Source: Pseudoalteromonas sp. DL-6 (lineage in GTDB: Bacteria > Pseudomonadota > Gammaproteobacteria > Enterobacterales > Alteromonadaceae). Taken from it: a stretch of DNA of 64,000 bases. Below are positions 13,285 to 51,061 of the stretch, piece by piece; position 1 is the stretch's first letter; the number at the start of each line of letters is the position of its first letter. The position numbers were made by a program, and so were the translations under genes. A model generated the notes under the pieces. It searched no databases, was not told where the DNA came from, and worked only from the letters and a program-made list of their open reading frames with translations. The stretch spans positions 62,001 to 126,000 of the forward strand of contig NZ_CP019771.1 in assembly GCF_004328665.1 (NCBI RefSeq), read 5' to 3'.

Positions 13285-13306
13285 GTTATGTTTTTAGGAG
13301 TATGAA

Positions 13307-13639
13307 TTGACTTTATCAGAAGCAATTTACCTTTGGTGTATCGGAGGTGGAGTTGTAGGTGCTCTTTTGAGATGGGGATTTCCCTATCTTTTTAAACGTG
13401 CCGATAAGCAAAATGAGTTTGAACCTATTAACCCTTGGGTTTCAGTAGCTTTTGGAGTTGCGATGGGGTTTGGAATAGCCATATTCTTCGAATCAGATTT
13501 GAAGAATGTCGAAGGTGTGCATATTGCTTACATAAAGAAACTTGGGTTGTTAAGTGCATTATTTGTAATGTCCACAATTGATAAATTAGATAAGTATTCT
13601 GCTGCGGCAACAAAGAACTTTATTAAGCCCAAAACATAA
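13307..13639 (+). CDS. Small membrane protein in an integron cassette
   Basis: A 110-residue protein not assigned to a known family, with hydrophobic segments near residues 8-26, 42-62 and 78-96. The start is TTG at 13307, with AGGAG six bases ahead; the nearer ATG at 13302 runs into a stop after two codons. Its stop codon lies inside the 5' core of the attC site at 13634-13732, the normal layout of a gene cassette, and the presumed 5' cassette boundary is GTTATGT at 13285-13291. The function is unknown. Confidence 0.7.
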   Translation: MTLSEAIYLWCIGGGVVGALLRWGFPYLFKRADKQNEFEPINPWVSVAFGVAMGFGIAIFFESDLKNVEGVHIAYIKKLGLLSALFVMSTIDKLDKYSAAATKNFIKPKT

Positions 13640-13732
13640 CAAACCAAGTCAGCGGGACACTAACACGTAGGCTCCCGTCACTTCATTCCTTTTTTAGCCT
13701 ACGTGTTGTTGCCCCTGCTTGGGGCGTTATAG
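13634..13732 (+). other. attC recombination site A
   Basis: A 99-bp imperfect palindrome with the full attC architecture. The 5' core is ACATAAC (13634-13640) and the 3' core GTTATAG (13726-13732). The L-type arms are CCAAGTCAGCGGG and GCCCCTGCTTGG, which pair except for unpaired extra bases, as attC sites require. The inner perfect 12-bp stem is 13662-13673 with 13696-13707, around a 22-nt loop. Ends such as GGGCGTTATA are typical of chromosomal-integron repeats of Vibrio and relatives. Confidence 0.88.
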
Positions 13733-13779
13733 GGCTAGGTGTTTAATCTAACCTCAGTGAATAATTAAAAGGATGAGTT

Positions 13780-15987
13780 ATGGATAACCTTAAAGTACAT
13801 CTTGAAAACTGTTACGGTATTTCTTCATTAGATAAAACGTTTGATTTAACTGCTGTAGGGAGAAAAGCTAAAGCTTATTCAATTTACGCTCCAAATGGAC
13901 TGATGAAAACATCCTTTTCTAGAACTTTTGATGCCTTATCAAAAGGTGAGCAGCCTAAAGAAGAACGCTTTAATCGCCAACCAACTTGCACTGTTGAAGT
14001 TGATAATGAGGAAATTACGAAGGAACAAATATACGTTCTTAAATCTGAAATAGAAATAAGTTCTGATAATGAAGCTGTAACGAACATCCTTATCAATAAA
14101 GAAAGTAAAGCTAGATATGACTCATTAATATCTAATATTAATAAATTGAAATCAAAGCTACAAACATCACTCCAGAAAAAGTCCAAACTAAAAAAAGATG
14201 AAGTCGAAAATAAACTGATAAATGACTTTCAAACAGATAATTTTGTAAGGGCAATAGAGTTAGCAAAAGAAATTGTTGTTAGTGATGATTTAAAAAGTTT
14301 TATCTATAACGAAATATTCGACCCTAAAGCCATTTCGATACTAGAAAGTCCTGAGTTTTTATCAAAATCCGATGAGTTTAATCAGCGTTATCAGGAACTC
14401 TTTAATCAAGCAGGAACAATATACCGTAGAGGGGTTTTCAACCCTACAAAAGCTGATACATCTTTCAGTACCTTAAATAAGCAAGGATACTTTGCCGGTG
14501 GACATAAAGTTCATCTACAAGGAGATGCTTCTTCAATTAATTACGAAGAACTGCAAGAAAAAATGAAGGTTGTACATGAATCAATCGACAGTGATAATGA
14601 ACTTAAAAATATACGAGTTAATTTAGCTAAAAATGCACAAACTCAAGCATTAGTTTCATTGTTGGAAAATATTTCGGCAACAGAGGTTGATCTACTTTTG
14701 CATAATGTAAAACCTAATAACCAAGCAGAATTCAAAAGGAGTTTATGGGCTTTTTATATTCAAAACTGTTCTGATACTGATGTATTTCTAGAAGCTTTCT
14801 CCGACAACCAAGCAGAGTTACAAGAAATCGAATTAGACGCTGCAACAGAAGCTCCAAATTGGTCTGTAGCTATAGAGCTTTTTAATAATCGTTTTGTCGA
14901 CATGCCTTTTACTCTCTCACTATTTAATCAGGTTGAAGCTGCACTAGGTAAAGATAAAGCACAATTAAAGTTCACGTTTAAAGATGGTGATGATCTTATA
15001 GATTGTACTAGAAGTGAAATTAAGTCTTTAAGCCAAGGAGAGAAACGCGCACTATACCTTCTTAATTTTATCTTTGAAGTAGAAGATAGAAAAAGAAAAT
15101 CAGCAGAAACTCTTTTTATTATTGACGATGTAGCAGACTCTTTCGACTACAAAAATAAGCATGCTATTGTTCAATATCTTGAGGACATCTCTGAGGTTGA
15201 ACATTTCTCTCAATTAATTTTGACTCATAATTTTGATTTCTTTAGAACTTTGGCAAATAACTTTGTTCATCGTGAAAGATGTTTAATGGCTAACAGAACT
15301 AAAAATGGTATAGAACTCTCTCAAGCAGAAGGTATAAAAAACTACTTTATTGGAAAGTGGAAAAGAAACATAACTAATAGTGAATTCATCCTTTGTGCGA
15401 CCGTACCTTTTACGAGAAATCTAATCGAGTATATAAAAGGCGAAAATGATCCAGATTACTTGAAGCTTACTAGTCTATTGCATTGGAAAGAAGACACATC
15501 CCAAATTACTATCGGTGAGTATTATGAAATCTATAATCGATTATTTGGTACAAATTACCCGACGAACGATGTGAGATCTTTCAAAGAGTTACTATTTAAT
15601 AAAGCAAATGAGATTAAGGATAGGGCTAATCATGAGGGGCTTAATTTAGAAGATAAAGTCCTTTTATCAATAGCCATCAGAATGAGTTCTGAAATTTTTC
15701 TAATCGAAGAAATAAGAAAAATAAAATCTGATGATGCATATTGGTGTCAATCAATGAATCAGTTTGGAGCTCTAATGAAGTCATACATAAGAGAATTACC
15801 TGATAGTCAAGCTATCAGAACTCTTGAAAAGGTTAGCATTACTGTTAGTTCTAATATTCACCTTAACTCTTTCATGTACGAACCGATATTAGATTTGACG
15901 ATTGAACACTTAATCACATTGTATTCAGAAATCTTAGAGTTAGAATCGGCAGTGCCAGTTCCTCAAGAAAACGAGGCTGCCCTGTAG
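13780..15987 (+). CDS. ABC/SMC-type AAA ATPase (AAA_13/RloC-like), candidate defence protein in a cassette
   Basis: A 735-residue protein. The N-terminal ATP site is APNGLMKTS (37-45), in which Met replaces the usual second Gly of GxGKT. Residues 110-170 and part of the middle look helical or coiled. The ABC signature LSQGE (about 417), Walker B with Asp-Asp in place of Asp-Glu (LFIIDD, about 444) and an H-loop (LTHNFDF, about 480) follow. The C-terminal part contains Arg546-x3-Glu550 and His568, reminiscent of the Arg/Glu/His set of PrrC/RloC anticodon nucleases but with different spacing. AAGGA precedes ATG 13780. It lies between attC sites A and B, one gene per cassette. A defence role is inferred; no activity can be read directly. 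Confidence 0.75.
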   Translation: MDNLKVHLENCYGISSLDKTFDLTAVGRKAKAYSIYAPNGLMKTSFSRTFDALSKGEQPKEERFNRQPTCTVEVDNEEITKEQIYVLKSEIEISSDNEAVTNILINKESKARYDSLISNINKLKSKLQTSLQKKSKLKKDEVENKLINDFQTDNFVRAIELAKEIVVSDDLKSFIYNEIFDPKAISILESPEFLSKSDEFNQRYQELFNQAGTIYRRGVFNPTKADTSFSTLNKQGYFAGGHKVHLQGDASSINYEELQEKMKVVHESIDSDNELKNIRVNLAKNAQTQALVSLLENISATEVDLLLHNVKPNNQAEFKRSLWAFYIQNCSDTDVFLEAFSDNQAELQEIELDAATEAPNWSVAIELFNNRFVDMPFTLSLFNQVEAALGKDKAQLKFTFKDGDDLIDCTRSEIKSLSQGEKRALYLLNFIFEVEDRKRKSAETLFIIDDVADSFDYKNKHAIVQYLEDISEVEHFSQLILTHNFDFFRTLANNFVHRERCLMANRTKNGIELSQAEGIKNYFIGKWKRNITNSEFILCATVPFTRNLIEYIKGENDPDYLKLTSLLHWKEDTSQITIGEYYEIYNRLFGTNYPTNDVRSFKELLFNKANEIKDRANHEGLNLEDKVLLSIAIRMSSEIFLIEEIRKIKSDDAYWCQSMNQFGALMKSYIRELPDSQAIRTLEKVSITVSSNIHLNSFMYEPILDLTIEHLITLYSEILELESAVPVPQENEAAL

Positions 15988-16081
15988 CAAGCCAATCAAG
16001 TCGGACGCCTAACAGTTGGCTGCGTTCACTTCGTTCACAAATATAGCCAACTATTGTTCGCCGCTTATTGGGGCGTTATAA
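15984..16081 (+). other. attC recombination site B
   Basis: A second attC. The 3' core GTTATAA is at 16075-16081; the 5' core is degenerate (TGTAGCA, 15984-15990, overlapping the ATPase stop codon). Arms CCAATCAAGTCGGACG and CGCCGCTTATTGG pair with unpaired extra bases. The inner stem AGTTGGCT (16014-16021) pairs with AGCCAACT (16045-16052). The cassette between the two 3' cores is 2,349 bp long. Confidence 0.85.
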
Positions 16082-16097
16082 GTCAAGGAGGCATCGA

Positions 16098-16634
16098 GTG
16101 TTAACTCAAATTTTCGAACAAAGTCTAGAGCAGTTTTTCCAACGAGAAGCACAAAATATTCTAAGTGGCGTAAGCGAAAGAAATCTTTGTTCTAGGCTCG
16201 CAATCCCTCTCGAAACGATAACTCACCAAAATGGTTTATCAACCTATTACGCTGATACAGAATACAACCGAAAGCAAAATGGTAGAGTCAAAACAATGCT
16301 GGATGATGATATGCAAGTTATAAATATTACTTGTGATCTAATCCTACATAGTCGAGGTGAAGTAATGGCTAGAGACAACTTAATCGCTATTGAAATGAAA
16401 AAATCTGAAAGGCCAGAAGAAGAAAAAGCTAGTGATAGAGCACGCTTACGTACTTTAACTAAAGCTAGTTTTGATGATGTTTGGTCTTTTGACGGGCAAA
16501 CTCACCCCGAGCATGTTTGCGGTTATGAGGTTGGCTATTTCATTGAATTAGATAAAGATAATAACTATTACTCTGTACAACAATTCCAAAATGGGCAATT
16601 TATTTCAGAGTTTAAAGGTAGTTTTGGCTTATAA
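16098..16634 (+). CDS. PD-(D/E)XK-like protein in an integron cassette
   Basis: About 178 residues. The start is GTG 16098, with a strong AAGGAGG six bases upstream; an earlier in-frame TTG lies inside the attC and is rejected. Asp80 (NITCDLIL), Glu99 and Lys101 (AIEMKKS) give the D...ExK pattern of restriction-like nucleases, on the usual hydrophobic strands. The DLI...IAIEMK spacing resembles restriction-endonuclease-like and phage-defence nucleases. It is the only gene of its cassette. A catalytic function is inferred, and no partner gene is obvious. Confidence 0.6.
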   Translation: MLTQIFEQSLEQFFQREAQNILSGVSERNLCSRLAIPLETITHQNGLSTYYADTEYNRKQNGRVKTMLDDDMQVINITCDLILHSRGEVMARDNLIAIEMKKSERPEEEKASDRARLRTLTKASFDDVWSFDGQTHPEHVCGYEVGYFIELDKDNNYYSVQQFQNGQFISEFKGSFGL

Positions 16635-16658
16635 CAAGTCGCTGAAAGGCGATGTTAA
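16629..16658 (+). other. Truncated attC remnant
   Basis: TTATAAC (16629-16635), the exact complement of the GTTATAA core of site B, overlaps the stop codon of the nuclease-like gene, as a 5' attC core should. It is followed by an arm-like AAGTCGCTG, but the pairing 3' half is missing and unrelated sequence follows. This reads as a deletion that removed the rest of the attC. Confidence 0.5.
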
Positions 16659-16689
16659 AATACGCGTGCTTTAATGAGATAAGGAATAT

Positions 16690-17043
16690 ATGCATCAGAT
16701 TAAGCACTCAGCAAGTCCATATCTTTATAAGATTGTATTAGATAGTGAGTATAAATTATCAGACGCGGACATAAATAAATTTAAGAAGACGGTGAATCAA
16801 GGTGTCGCTGTTTATGGTTTCACTCCAAATATTATAATAATTTCTAATTCGCATTATACTTACTGGGACTCCATTTCGTTGTTTGCAAAAGCTATGGACA
16901 CAGGTAAATTAGCTATTTGTAGTAATGATAATTTAGACGATGTTATTAAAAATATCTCTACTGAATTTGCACCTATTAATGTAAAGCAGTTTGGTAAGGA
17001 CAATATTATAGACTGCAATAAGTGGGTTATCTCCAAAGTTTAG
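16690..17043 (+). CDS. Hypothetical protein, 117 residues
   Basis: Not recognised. A soluble, acidic and hydrophobic mixed protein with no signal peptide; a beta-strand-rich centre (VAVYGFTPNIIIISN) and a short C-terminal strand are apparent. AAGGAATAT precedes ATG 16690, so translation is plausible. It directly follows the truncated attC, has the same strand as the cassette genes and lacks its own attC, so it may be the last cassette of a decayed array or the original flank. Confidence 0.55.
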   Translation: MHQIKHSASPYLYKIVLDSEYKLSDADINKFKKTVNQGVAVYGFTPNIIIISNSHYTYWDSISLFAKAMDTGKLAICSNDNLDDVIKNISTEFAPINVKQFGKDNIIDCNKWVISKV

Positions 17044-17227
17044 TTTATAGCAAATAGCTATGGTGCCAGCTTCTGCAATTGACACTCTCCACTCAGCCAA
17101 TAGTAACTGGCGGCTTGGTTAAATTTATTTAATTACGCTAGATTTTGCTACACTCAACCCAACCAATATTCAACGAACTTAAAACCTTTCACCTAACACC
17201 TTTTGCCTTTAACCTTTCACCTCGTTG

Positions 17228-17265
17228 TGTAAACCCCCGTTACATTTTGATTAAAAAAACGACAC
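17228..17265 (+). repeat. Dispersed palindrome with tail, copy 5
   Basis: TGTAAACCCCCGTTACA (17228-17244) plus the tail TTTTGATTAAAAAAACGAC, which resembles the tails of copies 6 and 7. It lies downstream of mesD. Confidence 0.6.
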
Positions 17266-17330
17266 TTTAACATGTGCAAAGGTATGGCTTTTTTACAGCA
17301 GCTGTAACTAAAGTTAAGCGACCATCACTG

Positions 17331-18368
17331 CTAATAACTCGCTGCTAATAGCTCGTTACGTACTAGCTCTGCGCCTTTGCTTAGGGCGTTGAGTTTACCG
17401 TTTGCGATGTCGCGTGGTAGGGGTGCCATACCGCAGTTGGTACAGGGGTAGAGCTTGTCGGCATCTACGTATTTAAGTGCTTCGCGTAGGGTTTTGGCCA
17501 CCTCTTCAGGGGTTTCTATAGTATTGCTGGCTACATCAATTGCGCCTACCATTATTTTTTTACCACGAACCAGTTCGAGTAGCTCTATGGGTACATGTGA
17601 GTTTTGGCATTCGAGCGAAATAATATCTATATTCGATTTTTGCAGCTTAGGGAATACTTCTTCGTATTGTCGCCACTCGGTGCCAAGGGTTTTCTTCCAA
17701 TCGGTGTTAGCTTTAATGCCGTAGCCGTAGCAAATATGCACGGCGGTTTCGCATTTTAACCCTTCTATAGCTCGCTCAAGGCAGGCTATGCCCCAGTCGT
17801 TTACCTCGTCAAAAAACACGTTAAAAGCGGGTTCATCAAATTGAATTATATCAACCCCAGCGGCTTCTAGCTCTTTGGCTTCTTGGTTGAGTATTTTAGC
17901 AAATTCCCATGCTAGTTTTTCACGGCTTTTATAATGATCGTCATACAGGGTGTCGATCATGGTCATTGGCCCTGGCAATGCCCATTTAATTGGTTGGCTG
18001 GTTTGCTGGCGTAAAAACTTGGCGTCTTCAACAAATACCGATTTAGTACGAGACACAGGGCCAACCACTGTGGGTACGCTGGCATCGTAACGGTCGCGAA
18101 TTTTAACTGTTTTACGGTTTTCAAAATCAACGCCATTTAAGTGTTCAATAAAGGTGGTTACAAAGTGCTGGCGAGTTTGTTCGCCATCGCTGACTATATC
18201 TACGCCTGCAGTTTGTTGCTCGTGCAGGGAAATACGCAGGGCGTCGTGTTTGCCATCAACCAGCTCACTGCCTTGTAATTTCCACGGTGACCATAAGGTT
18301 TCGGGCTCAGCAAGCCATGACGGTTTTGGCAAGCTGCCTGCTGATGATGTAGGTAATAGTTTTTTCAT
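17331..18368 (-). CDS. mesD: Folate-independent methionine synthase MesD (core-MetE family)
   Basis: A 345-residue protein matching only the catalytic C-terminal barrel of cobalamin-independent methionine synthase, without the N-terminal half. Zinc ligands are visible as His211 and Cys213 (VHICYG), Glu253 and Cys312 (TNCGMAPL), and the homocysteine-site DEP is at 178-180. Linkage to a DUF1852 gene (MesX, 31 bp upstream) identifies the MesD type, a short methionine synthase reported to need MesX and oxygen and to use a methyl donor other than methyl-folate. mesX and mesD form a minus-strand operon; MetJ-like boxes lie upstream of mesX. Confidence 0.88.
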   Translation of the reverse strand: MKKLLPTSSAGSLPKPSWLAEPETLWSPWKLQGSELVDGKHDALRISLHEQQTAGVDIVSDGEQTRQHFVTTFIEHLNGVDFENRKTVKIRDRYDASVPTVVGPVSRTKSVFVEDAKFLRQQTSQPIKWALPGPMTMIDTLYDDHYKSREKLAWEFAKILNQEAKELEAAGVDIIQFDEPAFNVFFDEVNDWGIACLERAIEGLKCETAVHICYGYGIKANTDWKKTLGTEWRQYEEVFPKLQKSNIDIISLECQNSHVPIELLELVRGKKIMVGAIDVASNTIETPEEVAKTLREALKYVDADKLYPCTNCGMAPLPRDIANGKLNALSKGAELVRNELLAASY

Positions 18369-18399
18369 AATAAATGCTGCCTTTAATTTTGTTGTGTGA

Positions 18400-19374
18400 T
18401 TAAGCGATACTTGCCGAGAACTGCTGCAATACTGACTGATAAGGCTTAATAAAATGCTGCTCAGTAAATTTACCTTGCTCTACCGCTAATTGACCTCGCT
18501 CTGCGCGGTCATACACAATTTGCGTTAACGAATGATCGTCATTTTTTAAATTTGGTTTATAACGGCTACCTGCGGCGGCGTTGGCGTTATAAATTTCTGG
18601 ACGATAAATTTTTTGAAACGTTTCCATGGTGCTAATGGTGCTAATTAGTTCAAGGTTGCTGTAGTCGTTAAGTAGGTCACCAAAAAAGTAAAACGCTAAT
18701 GGTGCAACGCTGTTTGGTGGCATAAAGTAGCGCACTTGTAAGCCCATTTTTTTAAAGTATTGCTCAGTTAACGACGACTCATTAGGCTGATACTCTACGC
18801 CTAAAATAGGATGTAAGTTTTCGGTTTGCTGATAGGTTTTGTTATCAGACACGCTTAAACAAATAACCGGTGGCTTTTTAAAGTGCTGTTTATAGGTATT
18901 TGAGTTTACAAAGCATTTAAACAACTTGCCGTGTAAGTCACCAAAGTTATCGGGAATGCTAAATTGCGGTTTGCTTTTGTTATGCTCAAGCAATAACACG
19001 CTAAAGTCGTAGTCGCGCACATACGATGAAAAGTTATTACCCACCATGCCTTCTATTCGCTCGTTGGTTTGGCGGTCAATAATATTGGTTTTTAATACCT
19101 CAATTGACGGAAATGCCTGACCACTGCCTGCAATGTCTAAATCGACCGAAATGATTTCCAGCTCAACCTCGTAACGATCCCCTTGTGGGTTATCCCAACT
19201 GGCCAGTGCATTAAAGCGGTTGTTGATCATTTTTAGGGTATTACGCAGGTTTTGTTGGCGGCTTTCACCCCTTGCTAAATTAGCGAAATTAGTCGTAATA
19301 CGTGTGTTATTTGACGGATGGTAGTTTTCATCCAAGTTAGTGCTTTTAATAGTAAATGTAAGATCAGTGCTCAT
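18400..19374 (-). CDS. mesX: MesX, partner of MesD (DUF1852)
   Basis: A 324-residue DUF1852 protein, recognised by the opening TFTIKSTNLDENYHPSNNTR and by its position just before a core-MetE gene. DUF1852 (MesX) is known to be required for MesD-type methionine synthesis; its chemistry is unresolved and it may supply or activate the methyl group. AAAGGATACGGCT precedes ATG. Cytoplasmic, with no membrane segment. Confidence 0.87.
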   Translation of the reverse strand: MSTDLTFTIKSTNLDENYHPSNNTRITTNFANLARGESRQQNLRNTLKMINNRFNALASWDNPQGDRYEVELEIISVDLDIAGSGQAFPSIEVLKTNIIDRQTNERIEGMVGNNFSSYVRDYDFSVLLLEHNKSKPQFSIPDNFGDLHGKLFKCFVNSNTYKQHFKKPPVICLSVSDNKTYQQTENLHPILGVEYQPNESSLTEQYFKKMGLQVRYFMPPNSVAPLAFYFFGDLLNDYSNLELISTISTMETFQKIYRPEIYNANAAAGSRYKPNLKNDDHSLTQIVYDRAERGQLAVEQGKFTEQHFIKPYQSVLQQFSASIA

Positions 19375-19819
19375 AGCCGTATCCTTTCAATTTGAGTTGT
19401 TACTGCTTTTATCAATGACACATTACTCGCTGTTAAAACCAAACTAACGGGATAACTGTAATGGTGCTTTGCAGAGTTAATAAATTTATACGCGCTATGT
19501 AGCATGAAGAAAAACGGTATTATTTCAGGTAAAACATGAGCCAGATTGATTCTTTAACAAAGTTGAATGAATAAATTAGGCTAGTAGACGCTCCCACTCA
19601 GACAAAACCCACTTTAGAAGTCTAGATTTCTAGATGTTTTTACGGGTGTTGTGATTTATTCATACAAAACGTGAGTATTATTCAATGCTCATAAGTACTT
19701 AAAGTCCAATTTGCATAAACGGTTGTTGATATACTCGAATAAACTTAGGTGAGCTTAAGCGCTTTATTAAGCAGCTCGCCGCCGCAGAACTTTCCACAAC
19801 ATAAGAAGAGACAAAAGGA
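19375..19819. other. Divergent regulatory gap between mesX and the permease
   Basis: 445 bp between divergent genes. The only clear signal is the MetJ-like box array at 19616-19639. No supported gene. Confidence 0.5.
19616..19639. promoter_or_regulatory. Three tandem MetJ-like boxes
   Basis: Three adjacent 8-mers, AGAAGTCT, AGATTTCT and AGATGTTT, match the MetJ box AGACGTCT at 7, 6 and 6 of 8 positions. MetJ binds such tandem boxes with S-adenosylmethionine and represses methionine genes. The array is about 240 bp upstream of mesX and 180 bp upstream of the permease, so it could serve either gene; the methionine link favours mesX-mesD. Confidence 0.6.
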
Positions 19820-20629
19820 ATGAGTGATTTAATAGTGTTAATTATATACTGCGCCATATTAGGTAGCGGTGTTGGTTTTTTAGCAGGCTTATTAGGAATA
19901 GGGGGCGGACTAGTGATTGTGCCCATACTCAGCATGATATTACTGCACTTTAATGCTTTGCCACCTGAACAAGTAGTGGTGGTTGCCATTGCGACTTCGC
20001 TGGCCTCTATTTTATTTACCTCGACCTCGTCGGCTATTGCGCATCATAAAAATGGCAATGTACCGTGGGATATTGCACCTTGGGTTATGACAGGCGTTGC
20101 CTTTGGCGCGCTCATTAGTGGCTTTATGGCCGCGCTGTTACCTGAGCATGTGGTACGTTTGGTATTTGCTGTAAGTGTGGTGTTAATTGCATTAAAAATG
20201 ATTTTTTCAGGTAAGAATGATTCAGCAATAGCGTGCCCGTTGCCAAACAAAGGGCTACTGAGTGTTTATACGACCATAACCGGTGGCTTGTCTGCCATGA
20301 TAGGTATTGGTGGCGGGGCAGTATTGGTACCGTTACTGACGTTTTTCTCTGTTGATATGAAAAAAGCCATTGGCTGCGCATCGGCCTCAGGCATTGTGAT
20401 AGCGTTGTTTGGATCACTGGGTTATATCAGCTCTGGTAGCCAGTTATTTAGCGTAAAAGAAGGATTTGCGGGCTTTGTGTATTTGCCCGCTTTATTGGGT
20501 ATTGTATGCACCTCATGGTTTACTGCACCGCTCGGTGCTAAAGCCACGCATTACTTACCGGTTTCAACCATAAAGAAAATATTTGCCGGCTTATTAATTG
20601 TAATGGCAATCAATATGTTTACTCGATAA
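19820..20629 (+). CDS. TauE/SafE-family membrane permease
   Basis: A 269-residue protein with about eight membrane segments and the two internally repeated glycine motifs of this family (GLLGIGGGLVIVP near residue 24, MIGIGGGAVLVP near 160). Family members export or import sulfite, sulfoacetate or other small organic anions. The neighbour is methionine synthesis, so a sulfur compound is plausible but unproven. Confidence 0.88.
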   Translation: MSDLIVLIIYCAILGSGVGFLAGLLGIGGGLVIVPILSMILLHFNALPPEQVVVVAIATSLASILFTSTSSAIAHHKNGNVPWDIAPWVMTGVAFGALISGFMAALLPEHVVRLVFAVSVVLIALKMIFSGKNDSAIACPLPNKGLLSVYTTITGGLSAMIGIGGGAVLVPLLTFFSVDMKKAIGCASASGIVIALFGSLGYISSGSQLFSVKEGFAGFVYLPALLGIVCTSWFTAPLGAKATHYLPVSTIKKIFAGLLIVMAINMFTR

Positions 20630-20694
20630 GGTTAAAGTTCGCAGGCTTGCTTGCGAATATATTTTGAAATAATAAACTTTAAGGCAAGGATGCT

Positions 20695-21069
20695 ATGAAA
20701 ATAGTTAAATTAAGGGATAAAGTTGATAAAACAATCTTAAGTGTTGCTTTATTCTTTTTGATATCACCTATTATAGGGTTAATTACAGGAACTGCTCATC
20801 AGCTTGGAACGACAGGCAGCGACTATCAACAAGCATCGTTAATTGATGACCCAGAGCAATACTGGCAAATTATTATCATGCAACTTACTATTACTTTAGC
20901 TATCGGTATCCAAGGGTTTTTTACATTCCCAGCCTTAATTGCCGCACGCCAAAAAGTATTAAACTTTAGAGATAACAATAAAATTGTAGCCAATATCATA
21001 TTTTATTTGCTCACTCCGGTATTATTTATCGCTTTGTTGATATTTTTAATATATTTATTTGAAGTATGA
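20695..21069 (+). CDS. Hypothetical small membrane protein
   Basis: 124 residues with three hydrophobic stretches (about 14-33, 62-80 and 100-121). Not recognised. AAGGCAAGGATGCT precedes ATG. It follows the permease by 65 bp on the same strand and may be co-transcribed. Confidence 0.65.
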   Translation: MKIVKLRDKVDKTILSVALFFLISPIIGLITGTAHQLGTTGSDYQQASLIDDPEQYWQIIIMQLTITLAIGIQGFFTFPALIAARQKVLNFRDNNKIVANIIFYLLTPVLFIALLIFLIYLFEV

Positions 21070-21135
21070 GAAGTGTAAGGTTTTAGCCCCGTAACCCGCC
21101 CCCCGACGCCCGTCAATAAGGCGATTAACTAAAAT

Positions 21136-22029
21136 CTACGTCATTTGAGCGTGTTTTATAAATTCATCATAAATACTGTCTTTAATAAGCCTGTCAGGCG
21201 TAAAGGCATAATAATGCTGATAAACATTATCAATTGTACCAATGTAATTTACGCCGTAATGGCGCTCTACTTCGGCTCTTACCAAAATAGGCGCAGGGAA
21301 TATGCCAAACCCTTGCTCACCTAACGACTTCATTAATGCGCTGTCGTCAACATGGCCAGCTATTGTCATTTCAATGTCTTTCTCTTGCAGCCAATAATAA
21401 ATAGCCCGCGCGACGGGGCTTTCTTTTGCAGGGAGCACTAAAGGCTTGTTATTTAAAGACTGCGGAAACTGCTTATGTAGTTGCGAATGCCATGTTTCGT
21501 TACCAAAAAGAGCGATTTGGCTTTTACCTATTTCATGACAAAACGCCTTAAATGATAAAGTGGTATCGAGTGGTTTGTCGGCTAACACTAAGTCGAGCTT
21601 ATGAATCGCCATTTGCGCCAGCAGTTCATCTTGTTGGCCGTCAATACAGTGTAAGTTGGTAATACGGTCGTTATTAATTAAAGGCGCTAGCCACTTCGAC
21701 ACCAATGATTTGGGTAACACATCTGAAATACCCACCTTTAACGTTCGTGAGTATTGCGTGGTATCGCCTTGCGTAGTTTCTAACCATTCGTGAGCAATAG
21801 CAAACATATCATTGGTGTACTGCTGAGTTACATGGCCAAACTCCGTTAACTGTAGGCCTCGCCCTTGGCGAACAAACAGTGGTTTTCCTAATCGTTGCTC
21901 TAAGTTAGTAATTTGCGAGCTGACCGTTTGCGGCGTTAAATTAAGTATTTTACTCGCCGCTGCAATACTGCCGTGCTTACTTACCTGCCAAAAATAATAT
22001 AAGTGATTGTAGTTAATGTTGGTAATCAT
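21136..22029 (-). CDS. NhaR-like LysR-family regulator
   Basis: A 297-residue LysR regulator whose N-terminus (NYNHLYYFWQVSKHGSIAAA) is characteristic of NhaR, which activates Na+/H+ antiporter genes in E. coli in response to sodium. The winged helix lies at residues 6-65 and the effector domain from about 95. No antiporter gene is adjacent; one (CPA type) lies 26 kb away at 47808. It is divergent from the small HPF-like gene at 22139. Confidence 0.83.
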   Translation of the reverse strand: MITNINYNHLYYFWQVSKHGSIAAASKILNLTPQTVSSQITNLEQRLGKPLFVRQGRGLQLTEFGHVTQQYTNDMFAIAHEWLETTQGDTTQYSRTLKVGISDVLPKSLVSKWLAPLINNDRITNLHCIDGQQDELLAQMAIHKLDLVLADKPLDTTLSFKAFCHEIGKSQIALFGNETWHSQLHKQFPQSLNNKPLVLPAKESPVARAIYYWLQEKDIEMTIAGHVDDSALMKSLGEQGFGIFPAPILVRAEVERHYGVNYIGTIDNVYQHYYAFTPDRLIKDSIYDEFIKHAQMT

Positions 22030-22138
22030 TCGAAAATACCTGTTTTAAAGTAAGAAATAATCAGCTTTTTCCTTTGCCACTAAGTTAGTAGATTACAGTC
22101 ATGCCTGCAACATAGTTACTATTAAAAGGTGTAATTGC

Positions 22139-22450
22139 ATGAAGCTAAAACTTACAGTTAAAAACAAGATAATTAACGCAAGTGAAAAGATGTCGCTTTT
22201 GAAGTTGATAAAAAGCCAATTGGCAAAACATACTTTAAATATTCGTAAAGTTGAGATTCAAATAAATGATCTTTCAAGTGAGCGTCACGGCACTTTGCAG
22301 CAATGCAAAATTAATATTCTTTTGCCTGGGCTACCCAGTATTAATGTAAATACAAAAGGAAGAAGTATGCTGCAAGCGATAAAGCGGGCACTTAAAAGTT
22401 TGCAGCACATTCTCGTTAATAAGTATCAACCTTCGCAACCAAGCAGTTAA
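22139..22450 (+). CDS. HPF/RaiA-like ribosome-associated small protein
   Basis: A 103-residue basic protein. The pattern QCKINILLPGLPSINVNTKG followed by AIKRALKSLQHIL resembles the beta-strand and last-helix pattern of hibernation-promoting factors (usual length 95-110). The N-terminal half diverges. A ribosome-binding role is an inference. An intrinsic terminator follows at 22463. Confidence 0.5.
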   Translation: MKLKLTVKNKIINASEKMSLLKLIKSQLAKHTLNIRKVEIQINDLSSERHGTLQQCKINILLPGLPSINVNTKGRSMLQAIKRALKSLQHILVNKYQPSQPSS

Positions 22451-22462
22451 TATCGCACTTGT

Positions 22463-22486
22463 AGTAGCAAGGATGCTACTTTTTTA
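22463..22486 (+). terminator. Terminator after the HPF-like gene
   Basis: AGTAGCA pairs with TGCTACT around a 4-nt loop, followed by six T residues. Confidence 0.7.
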
Positions 22487-22890
22487 ATGCCTCTCTAATT
22501 CCAAGCTATGTTTAGTAATAAACGATTCAATTATTGCCTATTGAGCCTTTAGCGCATTGCTATTGAGCAAAGCCGCCTTTCTTTGTTGGGTTTCGTTACA
22601 CTCTACCCAACCTAAGCCTTGTAAACCCTCGTACTATTTTGATTAAAAAAGCCGCACACTAACGAGGCGGACTATTATCTTAACTCTCGGATCTTTTATT
22701 TGGATTACCCACATAACGCTCTCATTAAAGAGCTCTATAATCATTATCTAGAAAGAAACATGAAAACTTCTATCGAAATTGAAGTAAAAAATAGATTAAG
22801 CGCGGTGTTCTTTCAGTGTAGTTTTTAAGTGATAATTAAGATAAGCGTTAGCTCTAACTCTTTATACTAAGTATTTAAAAGGATAGTTTA
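22487..22890. other. Gap with a repeat copy and no supported gene
   Basis: About 400 bp. It holds the degenerate repeat copy at 22620-22663 and a 22-codon open frame at 22760-22828 that I do not accept as a gene. Otherwise AT-rich and featureless. Confidence 0.45.
22620..22663 (+). repeat. Dispersed palindrome with tail, copy 6 (degenerate)
   Basis: TGTAAACCCTCGTACTA then the tail TTTGATTAAAAAAGCCGCAC. The palindrome is damaged, but the tail matches copy 7 (24698 onward), showing common descent. Confidence 0.55.
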
Positions 22891-23490
22891 GTGATACATA
22901 ATATTTCAAAATATAGTTTTATTTGGTTAATTTTATTACTTATTTCATTGAGTACTCATGGCCGTAGTCAGTCAACGATGGTTTGCGAAATATCGTCTAT
23001 AGGGAATCAAGAAGTCACAATTAGTAAGAAAAAATATGATAATGATCTCAAGTATGACTTTCAGCTTATAGATGACCATAAAATAATAACTATTACTGTC
23101 GGAGTCATAAGGCCTGAGCACGACTCTATTTTATTTAAAAGCTCAGCTAAAAAAGCATCAAAGATTGAAATTGTGGAATACTCACACAAAAGATATGAAA
23201 AAATGTGGGAAGAGGACCTTTTTCATACGGTGAATTTATTACATTCTGAAGATCATATCTGGGAGCAGCGAGATGCAAAGTTATCAATTTGGAAAGCTAC
23301 GTTCAATGAGCATGATAACTTGATTGGTTTTTGGTCAGCAGTAAACAACGAGGAGATGTTCACTCTTTCATTTAATGCACTAAATGCCTCTAATCAACAG
23401 AAGTTGGTGCCAATTAATGTAATAGTGAATACTGTTAATGAAATACTTGGTCAATGCAGAATTAAATCATTAAAAAATGACCCCCTTTGA
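22891..23490 (+). CDS. Hypothetical secreted protein
   Basis: 199 residues. The start is GTG 22891, with AAAGGAT seven bases ahead. An N-terminal signal sequence (hydrophobic 10-22, probable cut near THG-RS) is followed by a lysine-rich, mainly beta periplasmic or secreted domain; Cys32 and Cys192 could pair. Not recognised. It overlaps the start of the next small frame and may form a unit with the two following genes. Confidence 0.6.
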   Translation: MIHNISKYSFIWLILLLISLSTHGRSQSTMVCEISSIGNQEVTISKKKYDNDLKYDFQLIDDHKIITITVGVIRPEHDSILFKSSAKKASKIEIVEYSHKRYEKMWEEDLFHTVNLLHSEDHIWEQRDAKLSIWKATFNEHDNLIGFWSAVNNEEMFTLSFNALNASNQQKLVPINVIVNTVNEILGQCRIKSLKNDPL

Positions 23491-33767: not shown

Positions 33768-34730
33768 CTAATTAAAGGCACTTAATAGTTTAGTAAGTTG
33801 CTCTAAGCGCTTGTCTGTCATCACTTTATTATTAATTTTTATTGAAACGTCACCACTTTTAAGGTTGCGTTGCACACTAATAAAGTCGTTTTCAAGCACA
33901 GCCTCACGCTTTAATGCTGTTTTAGGCTCTGCGGTTAAATATTTAGTGATCAACATAGCGCGCTTGTCGTCGGCTTCTAAGGCGTTAACTTCATCATTGC
34001 TGGCAAGTGCAACAACTAACTCGTTAAATGCAGCCTCGTCTCGCTCCTTTGCGTTAATCAGCTTTTTAGCGACTTCTCTCCCTACATAATTAGCAGTTGG
34101 GTAAAGGGCTATAACATCGGCAGATATTTGCTCATACGCTTTGATAGCATCAGCAATCGCGGTGTGCGATACCCCTTCAATAACGGCAATTTCGCGGTAC
34201 GAACCTTTTTTGCCTTGTTGAATGAGCTCATCTCGAGTTTGCTGATACGCTTGGCCTAACTCCCATAGACTAGGGGCAATGTATTGATCGGAAGAAACCG
34301 CTAACACTTTGGCATCTTGCTCATTAAAATCATTTGAACTCAAAACAAGATAGTCTGCACCAGCCAAAATACAGGCTTTACGACGTCTTGAACCTGCAAG
34401 AACGAGGCTCATATCACCTTGATCCCAAAGTAGGGCAGGGTGCTGATTGCGACCATCTTCTTTAATTGCAGGAAGTATATCGGATACCGACTTTTCGTTT
34501 AAAAGCGCTTGTACACGGCGATTTTTGCCATAAACCTGAGTCGATTTTTCAATCTCGTTATGTGCAATCACTTTACACACTAAGGTGATTTCGCGGTTAG
34601 GATCGCTTGGCGCAGGCATACGAATAACATCGCCTGCATTGGCTTGCTCTAAAAGAGCGTCTAAGCTGCTACTGCCAACAGCGGTTGCAAAGGGATCTAA
34701 GCGGGTGTCATTTTTACGTTTTTTAGCCAT
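33768..34730 (-). CDS. parB: ParB-family partition protein
   Basis: A 320-residue ParB of plasmid type. The CTP/phosphate-loop box is LVLAGSRRRKACILAG (about 110-125). A helix-turn-helix follows at about 188-215 (SYREIAVIEGVSHTAIADAI), and the C-terminal part should dimerise. It follows parA by 15 bp in one operon. It binds parS and works with ParA to segregate the replicon. No parS was identified with certainty. Confidence 0.9.
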   Translation of the reverse strand: MAKKRKNDTRLDPFATAVGSSSLDALLEQANAGDVIRMPAPSDPNREITLVCKVIAHNEIEKSTQVYGKNRRVQALLNEKSVSDILPAIKEDGRNQHPALLWDQGDMSLVLAGSRRRKACILAGADYLVLSSNDFNEQDAKVLAVSSDQYIAPSLWELGQAYQQTRDELIQQGKKGSYREIAVIEGVSHTAIADAIKAYEQISADVIALYPTANYVGREVAKKLINAKERDEAAFNELVVALASNDEVNALEADDKRAMLITKYLTAEPKTALKREAVLENDFISVQRNLKSGDVSIKINNKVMTDKRLEQLTKLLSAFN

Positions 34731-34745: not shown

Positions 34746-35984
34746 TTACTTAGGCGTATTTAATTTTGATTGTGTAGATTGCCAATTTGAACGAATTAGC
34801 ATTTCGAGTTCATCGACAACATCTTTGATATTTTCTTGAGCGCGCATTAACGATTCTCTACTCGCTAAACTATCAGACGCTTTTTGATCAAAAATGGTAT
34901 TAAACGAGGATGAGCTCGCGGTAATTGCTGAACTGTGATTAATAGGGTAACTCATAACTTGGCGACCAAAGGCACTTCTTACGTCTTTAACAATGTCACG
35001 TTGTGAGTGATTGCCTTTTACATAATTGGTAACCAAAAATTGCATAAAGTCCCAACCATCGTGACCAAGAGCTGCAACGGTATGATAAATCTCACCTAAA
35101 CGTTTTAAATATTTATTATTAGCATCAAAGTCTACCGCTTCAGGATGAACCGGTATAAGCATCGCTGTAGAAGCCATTAATGCATTATAAAACATAAAGT
35201 TAAGAGTAGGCGCTGTATCAATTAGTAAAATATCAAATTCATCTTTTACTGGCTCGATAACACGCTCTAACAGCTTATGGTAATGGCGAGTTTGCTCATA
35301 GTTTGAGGTGTCTTTAAGCAAAGTTGCAGTTTCGTGTTCAAAATAAAAATCATCCATACCTGAGGGTAAAACACGAATATTAGGAATATGAGTTGGTAAA
35401 AAAGAGTTTGAAACAAATTCAGGCCAGGTTTCACCTTCTTCAAGATCAATGCAGTCACGCATTAAATCACCCACAGTAATTGGATCGGGCTCAGAAGATG
35501 GGAAAAAGCTAGATGATGACCCCTGCGGATCTAAATCGATAATACCAATTCGGTAACGCTTGATGTTAGTAGTGGCAAGTGCTGCAGCAATATTAACCAT
35601 GCTCGTTGTTTTACCACAACCACCTTTTAGCGAATTAATAACAATAACTTGGAGTTTGTCTGTCGGTGCACGATGATCGGGTTTTATATCCATTATATCG
35701 GCCATGGCAAAAATATTAACCAACGTATAAGCGTAATGACCGTTTGCACCGCGTTTTATGTTTAAATCGTCAAAATCACCATTGTCATGGCGTCTTTTTA
35801 AGGTACGATTATTACAACCAAGTAAATCAGCAGCGGCTTTTTGGGTGTAGGTTCTTAATTCTTTTTCTTCAGACTTAAGATGGGCGCGGTAATGTTGAAT
35901 ACGTCCTTCTAGTGATTTTTCAGCAACTTCTGCGGTTGCTTTCAAAAGTCGGTAGGTATCTAGCGCATTATTGTTGATAGACAT
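34746..35984 (-). CDS. parA: ParA-family partition ATPase (P1-like, with N-terminal HTH)
   Basis: 412 residues. An N-terminal winged-helix region (KAAADLLGCNNRTLKRR, about 48-64) precedes the deviant Walker A ATPase (LKGGCGKTTS, about 115-124), with Walker B near DILLIDTAPT. The length and extra DNA-binding domain mark a type Ia ParA, which also represses its own promoter. AGGAATAAAG precedes ATG. It is the first gene of parAB and divergent from rep across the origin. Confidence 0.93.
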   Translation of the reverse strand: MSINNNALDTYRLLKATAEVAEKSLEGRIQHYRAHLKSEEKELRTYTQKAAADLLGCNNRTLKRRHDNGDFDDLNIKRGANGHYAYTLVNIFAMADIMDIKPDHRAPTDKLQVIVINSLKGGCGKTTSMVNIAAALATTNIKRYRIGIIDLDPQGSSSSFFPSSEPDPITVGDLMRDCIDLEEGETWPEFVSNSFLPTHIPNIRVLPSGMDDFYFEHETATLLKDTSNYEQTRHYHKLLERVIEPVKDEFDILLIDTAPTLNFMFYNALMASTAMLIPVHPEAVDFDANNKYLKRLGEIYHTVAALGHDGWDFMQFLVTNYVKGNHSQRDIVKDVRSAFGRQVMSYPINHSSAITASSSSFNTIFDQKASDSLASRESLMRAQENIKDVVDELEMLIRSNWQSTQSKLNTPK

Positions 35985-36413
35985 ACTTTATTCCTCAAAG
36001 TTAGGCGTTTAGTATAATGTCCATTCAATTAGCTGTAAACAACTATTTAAGACGACATGTATTTTAAATACATGACATCTAAAATAATTTTACGCCTTTA
36101 ATATTGCTTAGTATAAATAAAGAAGTTTAAGTATGGTTAAATATATAAGGTATTAAAGGCTAAGGGCTTAAAATTATCATTTAACTACATGATTTACATG
36201 AATAATACTTAAAAAAGTGGATCAGCATTGTACGTGGTTAAGATCAGATCCTTATCTACTGGCAGATCACCTTTATACTAAGCAAATATTTAGCAGCTTA
36301 GTTACGCACAGGTTAAGCACTGAGTTACTCACAAAAGCATCGCTATAGATCATGTTTTTACTAAGTAAATTATAAAGTTATGCACCCACCAACAGAGATA
36401 ATAAGCGGTTTAA

Positions 36414-36460
36414 TTAGTATAGATCTGATCTGTAGTAAGTACAGATCAGATCTATGCTAA
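36414..36460. repeat. Inverted pair of iterons (47-bp palindrome)
   Basis: Two iterons face each other: left arm 36414-36434, 5-nt spacer, right arm 36440-36460, with 20 of 21 positions paired. Each arm holds two GATC sites. It lies just before the DnaA box. Confidence 0.85.
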
Positions 36461-36472
36461 CTCGAACTAAGC

Positions 36473-36481
36473 TTATCCACA
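36473..36481 (+). promoter_or_regulatory. DnaA box
   Basis: TTATCCACA, identical to the high-affinity consensus, lying between the iteron palindrome and the AT-rich stretch. Confidence 0.85.
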
Positions 36482-36755
36482 GGCAACAAATTTTTTGTTT
36501 AATTTGTCGTGCTAAATATCAAATAAAACACTTTGCAATGGACAAATTTATTATTCAGTTAGTAAAAATTCGGTTTATTAAAGCCTAGTTAGTATAAATG
36601 TGATCTGAAATCTTCTGTTTTAACTTTTGCTTAGTAAAATACTGATCTAAGCATTTTATTTGAAGTCAGATCACTTTTATACTAACTTAAACATTTAACT
36701 TTTGTGGCTTTATGTGTTGTTATTAGCTGTCACAATAAAAACGGAAATAAAAACC

Positions 36756-37970
36756 ATGAGCCGAAAGGTCAACATCTCGGTAGATAACTTGCCCGATACA
36801 CTTAGGGGCCAAATTCACGGGGTGGAAAGTGCAATTGATAACGAAAGCTTAGCACTATTTACAGATAATAAAGATGTGCGAATTTCGATAGAAAATGCAG
36901 CCCATGGGTTACGCGCTTACTCTAACACATTTAACCATTATGATCTGTGGGGACGCTTTGTTCGCTCAGGACATAAAAAGCTGCCACTTGAAGAAGCCCC
37001 TAAAAAAACCATTATTACGCGTAAGATATCTGAGAAAGTAGACGGTATTTTATACGATGGTGAAATTAAAATAACACCGGCTGTGGTAAGTACTCGTAAA
37101 GATGGTGAAGACGTTGAATACCTAGTTTGGCCATCAGACAGAGAAGAAAAAGTTGAGCGTGCACTAATTCGCCTTGCTTCAAAAGGTAAAATAGTAAAAA
37201 TTAATTTTAAGTCCGGTATTCAATATGCCGTTGTGTTTTCTATGAACGAATTAGCACAAGAACTTAAAGCGGTTGGTCAGTCTATGCCTTATCCGCAAAT
37301 TAAAGAATCGCTCGAAGCATTACAAGGTTCAAAACTTTCTTTTAAATATTCTGCTACTGACACTAAAAACTCTGATATTGATGATTCGTTCTATGAGTCG
37401 AATATGAACTTTTTATCGTCTTTACACTTTAGCGGTAAAAAAGGCCAAGGCGGAAATGTTAAATGTGTGGCGTGTTTAAATGCGTTTGTTCATAACATGA
37501 TCGATAACCTTGAATATAAGGGCTATTATTTTAATAGTGCTCAAGAATTAAAGCGCGGACTATCGCGTTGGATGATGTTACGTTTGTATCACTTATGGCG
37601 TTATGCTGCCCCAGGAAAAACGTATCATTTTAGACTGTTGTCTATTATGGAAAAATACGGCTCTATTTATTCAACCGATGATATTACCGAAAATAAATTA
37701 AAAGCACTGCGTCGTGATATGACCACCACGATGAAAGACTTAATTGAAAAAGGGGCAATATCTGAGTACAGCATTACCAATGTAAAAGATGATAAAACGG
37801 GTAATATTGTAGATTACACCTATGAAATGCATCCATCTGATCAGTTTTGTGATGAGATTCTGGCATTAAATAAACACAACAAGCGGATAGAGATACAAGG
37901 TGGTAAACGCATTGTTGAAAATGCAGTCTTAATTGATGAAGATAAGCTGGAAGAAATTGTAGAAAAATAA
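36756..37970 (+). CDS. Replication initiator protein (Rep_3/RepB-like winged-helix family)
   Basis: About 404 residues from ATG 36756; an upstream in-frame start 18 codons earlier has no ribosome site and reads through promoter DNA. Two winged-helix-like halves (about 120-230 and 245-360) with a basic SRWMMLRLYHLWRYA helix resemble initiators of iteron plasmids (RepA/TrfA class). It would bind the iterons just upstream to open the origin and, as a dimer, repress itself. It is convergent with tus through a shared terminator. It is clearly different from Vibrio RctB. Confidence 0.82.
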   Translation: MSRKVNISVDNLPDTLRGQIHGVESAIDNESLALFTDNKDVRISIENAAHGLRAYSNTFNHYDLWGRFVRSGHKKLPLEEAPKKTIITRKISEKVDGILYDGEIKITPAVVSTRKDGEDVEYLVWPSDREEKVERALIRLASKGKIVKINFKSGIQYAVVFSMNELAQELKAVGQSMPYPQIKESLEALQGSKLSFKYSATDTKNSDIDDSFYESNMNFLSSLHFSGKKGQGGNVKCVACLNAFVHNMIDNLEYKGYYFNSAQELKRGLSRWMMLRLYHLWRYAAPGKTYHFRLLSIMEKYGSIYSTDDITENKLKALRRDMTTTMKDLIEKGAISEYSITNVKDDKTGNIVDYTYEMHPSDQFCDEILALNKHNKRIEIQGGKRIVENAVLIDEDKLEEIVEK

Positions 37971-37999
37971 TTATATTAATTTTTACCACTAGTTATATT

Positions 38000-38026
38000 A
38001 AAGGCCACATAATGTGGCCTTTTTAA
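38000..38026. terminator. Terminator between rep and tus
   Basis: AAAGGCCACA pairs with TGTGGCCTTT (10 bp, 3-nt loop), followed by TTTT. It serves convergent rep and tus. Confidence 0.85.
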
Positions 38027-38031
38027 CATAA

Positions 38032-38907
38032 TTACTTTGTTACTTGTTCTAAATATAAACGGTCTACCAGAAAGTCATACTCACGTTTTCGTGGATGTGA
38101 TAACGGTTTTTCGTAACTCGGCAGTTGGCCATACTTAACATCGGGTTGTGGGTTTATAAGAATAAAAGGTAAGGCGGCACTAACATGGTAACGATTTTGA
38201 GCCGTGTATCTAACATTAACTTGTGGGCTAACTCGGGTAGGGCGCCTAATTCGTAATTTTTCTTTTTCACCTAAGCTGGCAACTCGAACTTGTTCTTGAG
38301 CAACCAATGATTGCCACTTTTGCTGATCAATCATTCTTGGGTTTTTATACCCAGCGGATTTTTCAAGCATTTCAAGAGCCATCTTCTTTGTGAGTGTTTT
38401 AGTGGCATGTTTATGCATCCAAGTAAAACGAACTGAAAAAGGGGATTCGCTTTCGCTATGAATTTTACGATAAGCGGCAAGCGTAATTAAATTTGGCATA
38501 GCATTATGCACGGCTTCAAATCGAGCATCATTATTGTCTATCGCTAAAATACAATTTTTAAATGCCGCTTTTGCATTATTAACTTGAGCAATGCGATCAA
38601 TGATGGCTTGTTTGTTAGCATCTTGTATTATTAATAAACCAGGGTGGCGTTTTAATACGCGACTACTCAGCCCAGGCTTTTTATACATATCAGAAAAAGA
38701 ATTTAAAATAGCCTTATGTGCTAGCTCTCCTGTAATTTTAGATACTGCAATCGACTCGGGAATTATATTTTCATCCACACTGCTTATTTCAGGTAGTTGA
38801 TAATATTCGGCCTTAGCAAATCCACATTCTTTAAGCTCTTCAATTAACCTAAGCGTTAACTCATTGAGTAAATCAAACTGGCTTCTAATTTGTACTTTTG
38901 TAACCAT
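38032..38907 (-). CDS. tus: Replication terminus site-binding protein Tus
   Basis: 291 residues (E. coli Tus is 309). Aligned blocks include MPNLITLAAYRK (E. coli LPGLITLNAYR), FTWMHKHATKTL (FGWANKHIIKNL), ALEMLEKS and LRIRRPTRVSPQVNVRY (LKIKRPVKVQPIARVWY). Tus binds Ter sites and stops DnaB helicase from one side only. Three Ter-like sites lie immediately upstream (38914-39246), the first 7 bp from the start codon, where it would repress its own gene as TerB does in E. coli. It stands next to the origin rather than opposite it. Confidence 0.88.
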   Translation of the reverse strand: MVTKVQIRSQFDLLNELTLRLIEELKECGFAKAEYYQLPEISSVDENIIPESIAVSKITGELAHKAILNSFSDMYKKPGLSSRVLKRHPGLLIIQDANKQAIIDRIAQVNNAKAAFKNCILAIDNNDARFEAVHNAMPNLITLAAYRKIHSESESPFSVRFTWMHKHATKTLTKKMALEMLEKSAGYKNPRMIDQQKWQSLVAQEQVRVASLGEKEKLRIRRPTRVSPQVNVRYTAQNRYHVSAALPFILINPQPDVKYGQLPSYEKPLSHPRKREYDFLVDRLYLEQVTK

Positions 38908-38913
38908 AACACC

Positions 38914-38935
38914 ACCAAGAACACATCTTACTATT
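38914..38935 (-). promoter_or_regulatory. Ter-like site 1, next to the tus start
   Basis: On the minus strand AGTAAGATGTGTTCTTGG; E. coli Ter is AGTATGTTGTAACTAAAG. It overlaps the tus leader. By E. coli polarity it would stop forks moving leftward. Confidence 0.7.
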
Positions 38936-39022
38936 CCACCATTTTCGCAAATAACCTTTTGCTTTGGTAGTCTAATATTTAAATATTACTCTATTGTTAA
39001 GATTAAACTTATATTTAAATTG

Positions 39023-39042
39023 AGTATGATGTGTTCTTTACT
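39023..39042 (+). promoter_or_regulatory. Ter-like site 2
   Basis: AGTATGATGTGTTCTTTACT shares AGTATG-n-TGT with E. coli Ter, including the G that pairs with the locking cytosine. Read on the + strand, it should stop forks moving rightward, that is, coming from the origin. Confidence 0.75.
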
Positions 39043-39226
39043 GTTGGTAGGAACATTTAAATAATAATATTTTCTAACTTACTAATAGTTATATATAAAC
39101 GAAGTATAAAGGAGTGGGTATAAACCAGCAGAACTACTCAGCTAGCATATATATTCGAAACTACATAACTGGCGGCAGATATATTTAATTTTAACTGTAA
39201 AGTTAAGAATACGTATAGGTGATTTA

Positions 39227-39246
39227 AGTATGATGTGTTCCTACGT
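39227..39246 (+). promoter_or_regulatory. Ter-like site 3
   Basis: AGTATGATGTGTTCCTACGT, with 14 identical leading bases to site 2 and the same orientation, 204 bp further on. A second barrier for rightward forks. Confidence 0.75.
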
Positions 39247-50930: not shown

Positions 50931-51061
50931 GCTCTTAAAACCCTATCATAAGTGGGCTAGTTTGTATGATTACGCCCACTTTAATTTAAACATTACAATT
51001 TAACATAACGTAATTTATGAGTTGTCATTCTATTCCCTAAAGCATTACATCCTATATTTAT

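Follow-up and report, generated by a model that had tools for sequence, protein, structure and literature searches.

This report concerns a predicted replication fork trap built around the terminus gene tus and the Ter-like sites beside it in a stretch of 64,000 nucleotides (the window) of Pseudoalteromonas sp. DL-6, namely bases 62001–126000 of contig 2 (664,854 bp), a 665-kb chromid; contig 1 (3,240,395 bp) is the main chromosome of this two-contig, 3.9-Mb genome. As far as can be read from the sequences, a genus-wide Tus–Ter system with a divergent type of Ter is present, in which a predicted trap resembling that of plasmid R1 at the chromid origin is combined with an ordinary trap on the main chromosome that would be served from the chromid. 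Good confidence is placed in the joint proposal that chromid Tus and the origin-side trap block one of two forks, that the same Tus bounds termination on the main chromosome, and that bidirectional chromids arose by loss or relocation of sites. Close relatives of tus sit on Pseudoalteromonas records (33 named loci, similarity search with tus), and the replicon is therefore taken as a chromid of the Pseudoalteromonas type.

Tus and Ter sites beside ori2

The gene tus (38032..38907, minus strand) encodes a replication terminus site-binding protein of 291 residues that was matched by PF05472 with E 1e-90 over 281 residues (profile 1–295 of 296); a Tus family search of the whole genome returned this single match, which places tus on the chromid only. 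The AlphaFold2 model (mean predicted local distance difference test, pLDDT, 85) was matched by Foldseek to four E. coli Tus structures: 27–28% identity, template modelling (TM) score 0.65–0.71, root-mean-square deviation (rmsd) 9.4–9.6 over 277–281 columns, E 9e-25 or better for three of the four chains and 2e-24 for the fourth; for chain 1ecr_A the E-values were 4e-25 by sequence and 9e-25 by fold. In all 18 aligned Tus proteins of the genus, three residues that we take to be base contacts are changed relative to E. coli (A173 to M, Q250 to H, Q252 to S). Of the residues presumed to make up the cytosine pocket and the lock, F140 and H144 were found in 18/18 and L150 in 17/18 of these proteins. 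R198, a lock residue according to PMC8707476, was found in 14/18, the window's Tus included.

Second, more distant Tus genes were observed on other contigs of the genus (G008:C3, G021:C3, G086:C3 and contigs of G013, G054, G061, G071 and G074). No exact Ter core was found on the three C3 contigs, which belong to closed genomes; the second Tus there may therefore read another Ter sequence.

Three sites follow the 5' end of tus, with the core GTA(T/A)GATGTGTTC: site 1, AGTAAGATGTGTTC (38919..38932, minus strand; one mismatch to the 14-mer), and sites 2 and 3, both exact AGTATGATGTGTTC (39023..39036 and 39227..39240, plus strand). The core GTAWGATGTGTTC, searched in the window at up to one mismatch, gave three matches, all exact, against 0.08 expected; none of 100 shuffles reached three. 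The 14-mer at 0–1 mismatch occurred at five places in the whole genome, three beside tus and two on the main chromosome. Relaxed to three mismatches it was rejected as evidence, the count in the window being at chance level (6 found, 5.2 expected; 43/100 shuffles reached that number). When three mismatches were allowed, the E. coli-type pattern AGNATGTTGTAACTAA gave two matches in the window (4.8 expected), none better than three mismatches and neither at the Ter sites, so that the sites are assigned to a divergent Ter type; this agrees with PMC7858055, where the E. coli consensus had failed to reveal ter in P. tunicata. The original prediction, of an origin, rep, a tus gene and three Ter-like sites within about 3 kb, with sites 2 and 3 on the plus and site 1 on the minus strand, was confirmed, each element being where it had been placed.

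The origin region of the chromid, ori2 (36215..36755), consists by repeat analysis of direct and inverted repeats of GATC-containing units and adjoins rep. Sites 2 and 3 face forks going rightward from it, 2.3–2.8 kb away; site 2 is the predicted origin-side block and site 3 a second one, and site 1 is the predicted backstop against leftward forks. Sites 1 and 2 leave a gap of 90 bp that forks may enter from either side and, given E. coli Ter polarity, would not exit. In E. coli the non-permissive end of Ter is the GC(6) end, and TerB lies 11 bp upstream of the tus ATG (PMC8707476).

Site 1 and, in the E. coli tus region, AAGGATGTTGTAACTAAAG are both on the tus strand; the distance from their start to the ATG is 25 bp for site 1 and, taking AGGATG as the start, 29 bp in E. 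coli. G(6), A8, T9, G10, T12, G13 and T14 are common to the chromid sites and the TerB-type site of E. coli; positions 11 and 15–18 differ. The left halves of the chromid and E. coli sites thus align and the right halves differ, as do the Tus residues presumed to contact bases. In the loci examined, one Ter site lies 2–14 bp before the tus start. Since site 1 is optional among chromids (see below) and is located where TerB precedes E. coli tus, it is by analogy probably a tus operator as well as a backstop.

Genus-wide sites and the predicted main-chromosome trap

The survey set comprised 30 genomes: the DL-6 genome itself (G000), 28 genomes with 1–4 contigs and G047 (8 contigs); closed genomes were drawn from 80 of 98 genus genomes, 18 with high contig numbers being left out, and an extra site scan covered 11 genomes with few sites. 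A site was called origin-side if its orientation would stop forks that leave the origin in the direction of tus, and backstop if opposed to that; distances to tus were counted on the circle (one G028 site spans the contig end). The core was found in 99/99 genus genomes, DL-6 included (reversed-pattern control: 4 hits across all 99); among 114 genomes of the family from other genera, 6 had one core match each and none had two (control: 6 hits).

Wherever a chromid carries tus (29 cases), the 3' end of this gene faces rep, and a rep ortholog adjoined tus in 32 of 33 genomes searched (best match per genome 83–100% identity). Origin-side sites were present in 27 of the 29, 1–6 each and 79 in all; an exact backstop was present in 19 of these 27, one each and always nearer the origin than the origin-side sites. 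All 79 and all 19 lie within 15 kb of the tus middle, the farthest at 14.7 kb. Five genomes (G028, G047, G055, G070, G094) carry 4–6 origin-side sites, their backstop being downstream of tus and outside its promoter. At the 33 named tus loci at least one origin-side site was found in 33/33 and an exact backstop in 32/33, the backstop of L037 having a mismatch; by exact cores, 29 loci have two origin-side sites and one backstop, three have one of each and one has two origin-side sites only, and the flanks of the sites vary.

On the main chromosome of DL-6 the 14-mer at 0–1 mismatch gave a facing pair, G000:C1:1600990 (minus) and 1629410 (plus), span 1600990–1629423; the two are 28 kb apart, at 0.494–0.503 of the chromosome, and enclose a dif1-like site at 1606889. 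GC skew in sampled stretches was positive in 9/9 up to 1.52 Mb, near zero or slightly negative in three around the trap and negative in 8/8 beyond. This second trap lay outside the view of the original prediction, which was made from the window. Across the 30 closed or near-closed genomes 50 exact sites were found on main chromosomes. In 22 genomes both strands are represented, and in 22/22 the pair stands in trap orientation, 23–144 kb wide, with dif1 inside in 21/21 where it was found (it was not found in G083); five further genomes have a single main-chromosome site, on the proper side of dif1. A one-mismatch partner occurs on the other side of dif1 in G001, G047 and G092. Polarity is thereby calibrated within the data: the E. 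coli-type reading makes all 22 pairs traps around dif1 and holds, and the opposite polarity, by which all 22 would keep forks from dif1, is implausible. The single-contig genome G001 has no tus or rep that could be found, yet one exact and one one-mismatch Ter flank its dif1; its chromid is either missing from the assembly or lost.

The dif1 and dif2 calls rest on a dif consensus that we take to apply here. A dif pattern that kept the central region of E. coli dif had no match; a looser one matched 13 places in the genome against 19 for the reversed-pattern controls and is alone not significant. The two sites were chosen from the 13 by the whole TTATGTTAAAT being kept, by the expected places and by a common ACNACYYATAA arm. 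A pattern built from the chosen pair gave 1–3 matches in each of 30 genomes, its reversed control 3 hits in all; the calls are partly circular, and the refined pattern was nonetheless tested on genomes not used in building it. The dif2-like site, ACAACTCATAAATTACGTTATGTTAAAT (50998..51025, minus strand), lies 12.5 kb from the tus middle on the terminus side. In the survey dif2 was found in 23 chromids, 12–25 kb beyond tus in 18 of them; it lies 411 kb away in G017, 777 kb in G002 and 832 kb in G065.

In the full-text literature searched neither a Pseudoalteromonas ter sequence nor a main-chromosome trap was found; the Ter core string occurred there in one unrelated paper, and service of the main chromosome by a chromid Tus appears to be unreported in searchable papers. 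The balance tips slightly towards the wider reading that one chromid gene both parks a fork at its own origin and closes the trap at dif1, that the main chromosome in this respect depends on the chromid, and that relocation of Ter to dif2 is the switch from one-way to two-way replication.

Fork number at ori2 and competing explanations

The adjacency of tus and the chromid origin is known (PMC6549158, Galli et al. 2019; PMC7858055, Xie et al. 2021). One-way replication was shown by read depth in P. tunicata and seven other strains (PMC7858055), and single-slope read depth of Chr2 was described in P. translucida TAC125 (PMC13342612); a relation to R1 had been suggested, per PMC7858055, and an R1-like mode was proposed with the ter site marked by a question mark (PMC8347550, Goodall et al. 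2021; PMC10331603). The statement in the original prediction that unidirectional chromid replication with the terminus beside the origin had been reported in Pseudoalteromonas agrees with this literature.

Under the proposed mechanism two forks would form at ori2; the rightward fork would be halted at site 2, with site 3 as back-up, within about 2.8 kb, and the leftward fork would copy the remaining 99% of the circle, passing dif2, displace Tus from sites 3 and 2 from the permissive side and fuse with the parked fork. Site 1 would be a backstop protecting the origin and probably the tus operator. Tus made from the chromid would also bind the two main-chromosome sites, giving the 28-kb trap around dif1; in bidirectional chromids the origin-side sites would have been lost and Ter sites would have come to flank a distant dif2. 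Fork arrest as such we infer from the Ter sequences.

In the window's chromid 15 of 17 sampled stretches had negative skew, the sign expected of a leftward fork; in the G073 chromid 19 of 20 had positive skew, the sign expected where the fork runs away from tus. To the right of the sites third-position skew was uniform and of the leftward-fork kind in three of the four genes measured: aroG was negative in 32/32 species, ppsA in 31/31 and a flavin adenine dinucleotide (FAD) oxidase gene in 28/28.

These skews and the published read depth are equally compatible with an initiation at ori2 that is inherently one-way (one helicase loaded, leftward), Tus–Ter stopping only the returning fork and sites 2 and 3 being idle or guarding against rare events; Xie et al. 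left the choice between one and two forks open (PMC7858055). With a single fork the origin-side sites would be idle and the backstop essential, so that the backstop should be kept and the origin-side sites should decay. The reverse conservation was seen: origin-side sites are kept in 27/27 chromids and multiplied up to six, the exact backstop only in 19/27, which argues that a fork toward tus forms and must be stopped. Moreover, the rep of bidirectional chromids is an ortholog (83–84% identity) in the same position, and an initiator of this kind is therefore not bound to work in one direction. Universal origin-side blockers with an optional backstop thus favour two forks, one of them blocked, and an inherently one-way start is considered unlikely.

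The exceptions bear on a further explanation, by which direction is set by the place of dif2, by KOPS-like motifs or by the balance of replication and transcription, and the Ter sites merely follow. G002 and G065 are the only chromids of the 29 with tus that have no sites near it; rep still adjoins tus in both, and the rep and tus trees join the two (the placement of G017, on a long branch, is unsure). In G002 skew is positive in 11/11 stretches up to 0.82 Mb and negative in 9/9 beyond, and Ter sites at 737 (minus) and, with one mismatch, 850 (plus) kb stand around dif2 at 819 kb; in G065 skew is positive at 81–911 kb (11/11) and negative in the other 9/9, and Ter sites at 825 (minus) and 926 (plus) kb stand around dif2 at 863 kb, a further minus site being at 304 kb. 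Two-armed skew and antipodal dif2 in these two are in keeping with the bidirectional clade, comprising P. spongiae and two others, that PMC7858055 describes. That direction is set by such factors would explain why G017 retains two origin-side sites despite dif2 at 411 kb and mixed skew; both clean bidirectional chromids, in contrast, are without origin-side sites, and a functional one should be decisive, because in E. coli it proved impossible to insert a strong Ter site, oriented to block forks, 930 kb from oriC (PMC8707476). The explanation is held to be quite improbable.

That the motif is mainly an operator for Tus self-repression, with fork blocking secondary, is suggested by the site 2–14 bp before the tus start, as with TerB in E. 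coli, and is very improbable in view of sites up to 14.7 kb from tus and on another replicon around dif1, of the polar order in 22/22 main chromosomes and 19/19 chromids, and of the backstop downstream of tus in the five genomes listed above.

Several observations weigh against the proposal of two forks with one blocked. G017 (G017:C2:150764–153545 and 1057932) has two origin-side sites, no backstop, dif2 411 kb away and mixed skew over 40 stretches; G073 and G092 have about 100 kb between dif2 and tus, and in 6 of the 29 chromids no dif2 was found at two mismatches; and dif2 is outside the chromid trap, whereas dif1 is inside its own. To the left of the origin parA has negative third-position skew in 0/32 species and parB in 4/32, the reverse of what a leftward fork would leave, and within the window positive skew was also seen at 20–36 and 51–64 kb. 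The equivalent of Arg198 is Ile or Asn in Tus of G002, G017, G065 and G067, and the chromid layout of G067 is usual; of these four genomes G067 has a main-chromosome Ter site, and G002, G017 and G065 have none, being the three among the 30 without exact main-chromosome sites. Related genomes are not independent. Local GC skew, tried as a fine map of fork direction, gave a mixed result and was set aside.

Measured against these data, the original prediction stands in that the orientation of sites 2 and 3 would stop rightward forks 2.3–2.8 kb from the origin. Site 1 as the normal stop was given up, since the returning fork would fuse at site 2; its role is amended to that of an optional backstop, exact in 19/27 chromids with origin-side sites, and probable tus operator. 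Fork-trap geometry as the mechanism gains from being genus-wide and lacking only in the two closed chromids that combine antipodal dif2 with two-armed GC skew, and is left with the misfit of G017; the skew check that it had proposed came out as for a leftward fork over the chromid (15/17 stretches) and mixed locally (parA, parB and the two blocks named).

Neighbouring features and comparison with known systems

From left to right the window carries a helicase gene, a parB-like gene and parA (all minus), the origin, rep (plus), tus (minus), the three Ter-like sites, an aroG-like gene with more genes (plus) and the dif2-like site. The replication initiator rep (36756..37970, plus strand, 404 aa) was named by ortholog comparison; a profile search found no Pfam family for it at E 0.001. 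The parA2-like partition ATPase (34746..35984, minus strand) was matched by PF13614 (6.5e-26); the probable parB2 partner (33768..34730, minus strand) is named from its position beside parA and had no Pfam family at E 0.001. Within the ori2 region a single copy of TTATCCACA at 36473–36481 resembles what we take to be the DnaA-box consensus. At window positions 13000–23000 G+C is partly lower and skew is positive within the mostly negative chromid; this part is possibly acquired. A parA2B2-repA-tus gene cluster has been described, and repA with the adjacent ori2 sustains replication in P. tunicata and P. spongiae (PMC7858055).

The proposal supplies the ter sequence that the published search missed, answers in concrete terms, with two forks of which one is blocked, the question left open by the published authors, and names single sites whose loss should make a unidirectional chromid bidirectional.

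The RTP–terminator system of B. subtilis is a polar fork trap around the terminus whose protein and sites are unrelated to those of Tus–Ter; PMC8347550 names it as well. With the published Pseudoalteromonas chromids (PMC7858055, PMC6549158, PMC8347550) the window's chromid shares tus next to ori2 and the unidirectional mode, and the survey shares with them dif2 near ori2 (4–27 kb in the published accounts) and a bidirectional clade; in the available passages of these accounts no ter is found or shown, the number of forks is left open and no main-chromosome trap is mentioned. Common with the E. coli trap (type II) and the type I trap of Dickeya and Edwardsiella (PMC8707476, PMC10331603) are the Tus family, the trap geometry and dif inside the innermost main-chromosome pair; a Ter site immediately upstream of tus, on the same strand as the gene, is a likeness to E. 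coli, and single sites bounding the trap are a likeness to type I. In contrast to E. coli, the 3' half of Ter is GATGTGTTC here and GTTGTAACTAA there, the main-chromosome trap would be served from another replicon, and a second trap stands beside an origin.

The closest likeness in layout is to terRL and terRR of plasmid R1 (PMC10331603): two opposed Ter sites beside the origin, of which one stops a fork early and the other the fork going round. The layout of an R1-type lock, in which a one-way replicon has opposed Ter sites next to its origin, was found here; that the chromid replicates one way is taken from its skew and from published data on other strains. R1 relies on the Tus of its host and has its sites between oriR and the start of the leading strand. 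The chromid has its own tus next to the origin, its sites on the far side of rep and tus, two or more blocks for each backstop and a different Ter sequence, and it measures 665 kb.

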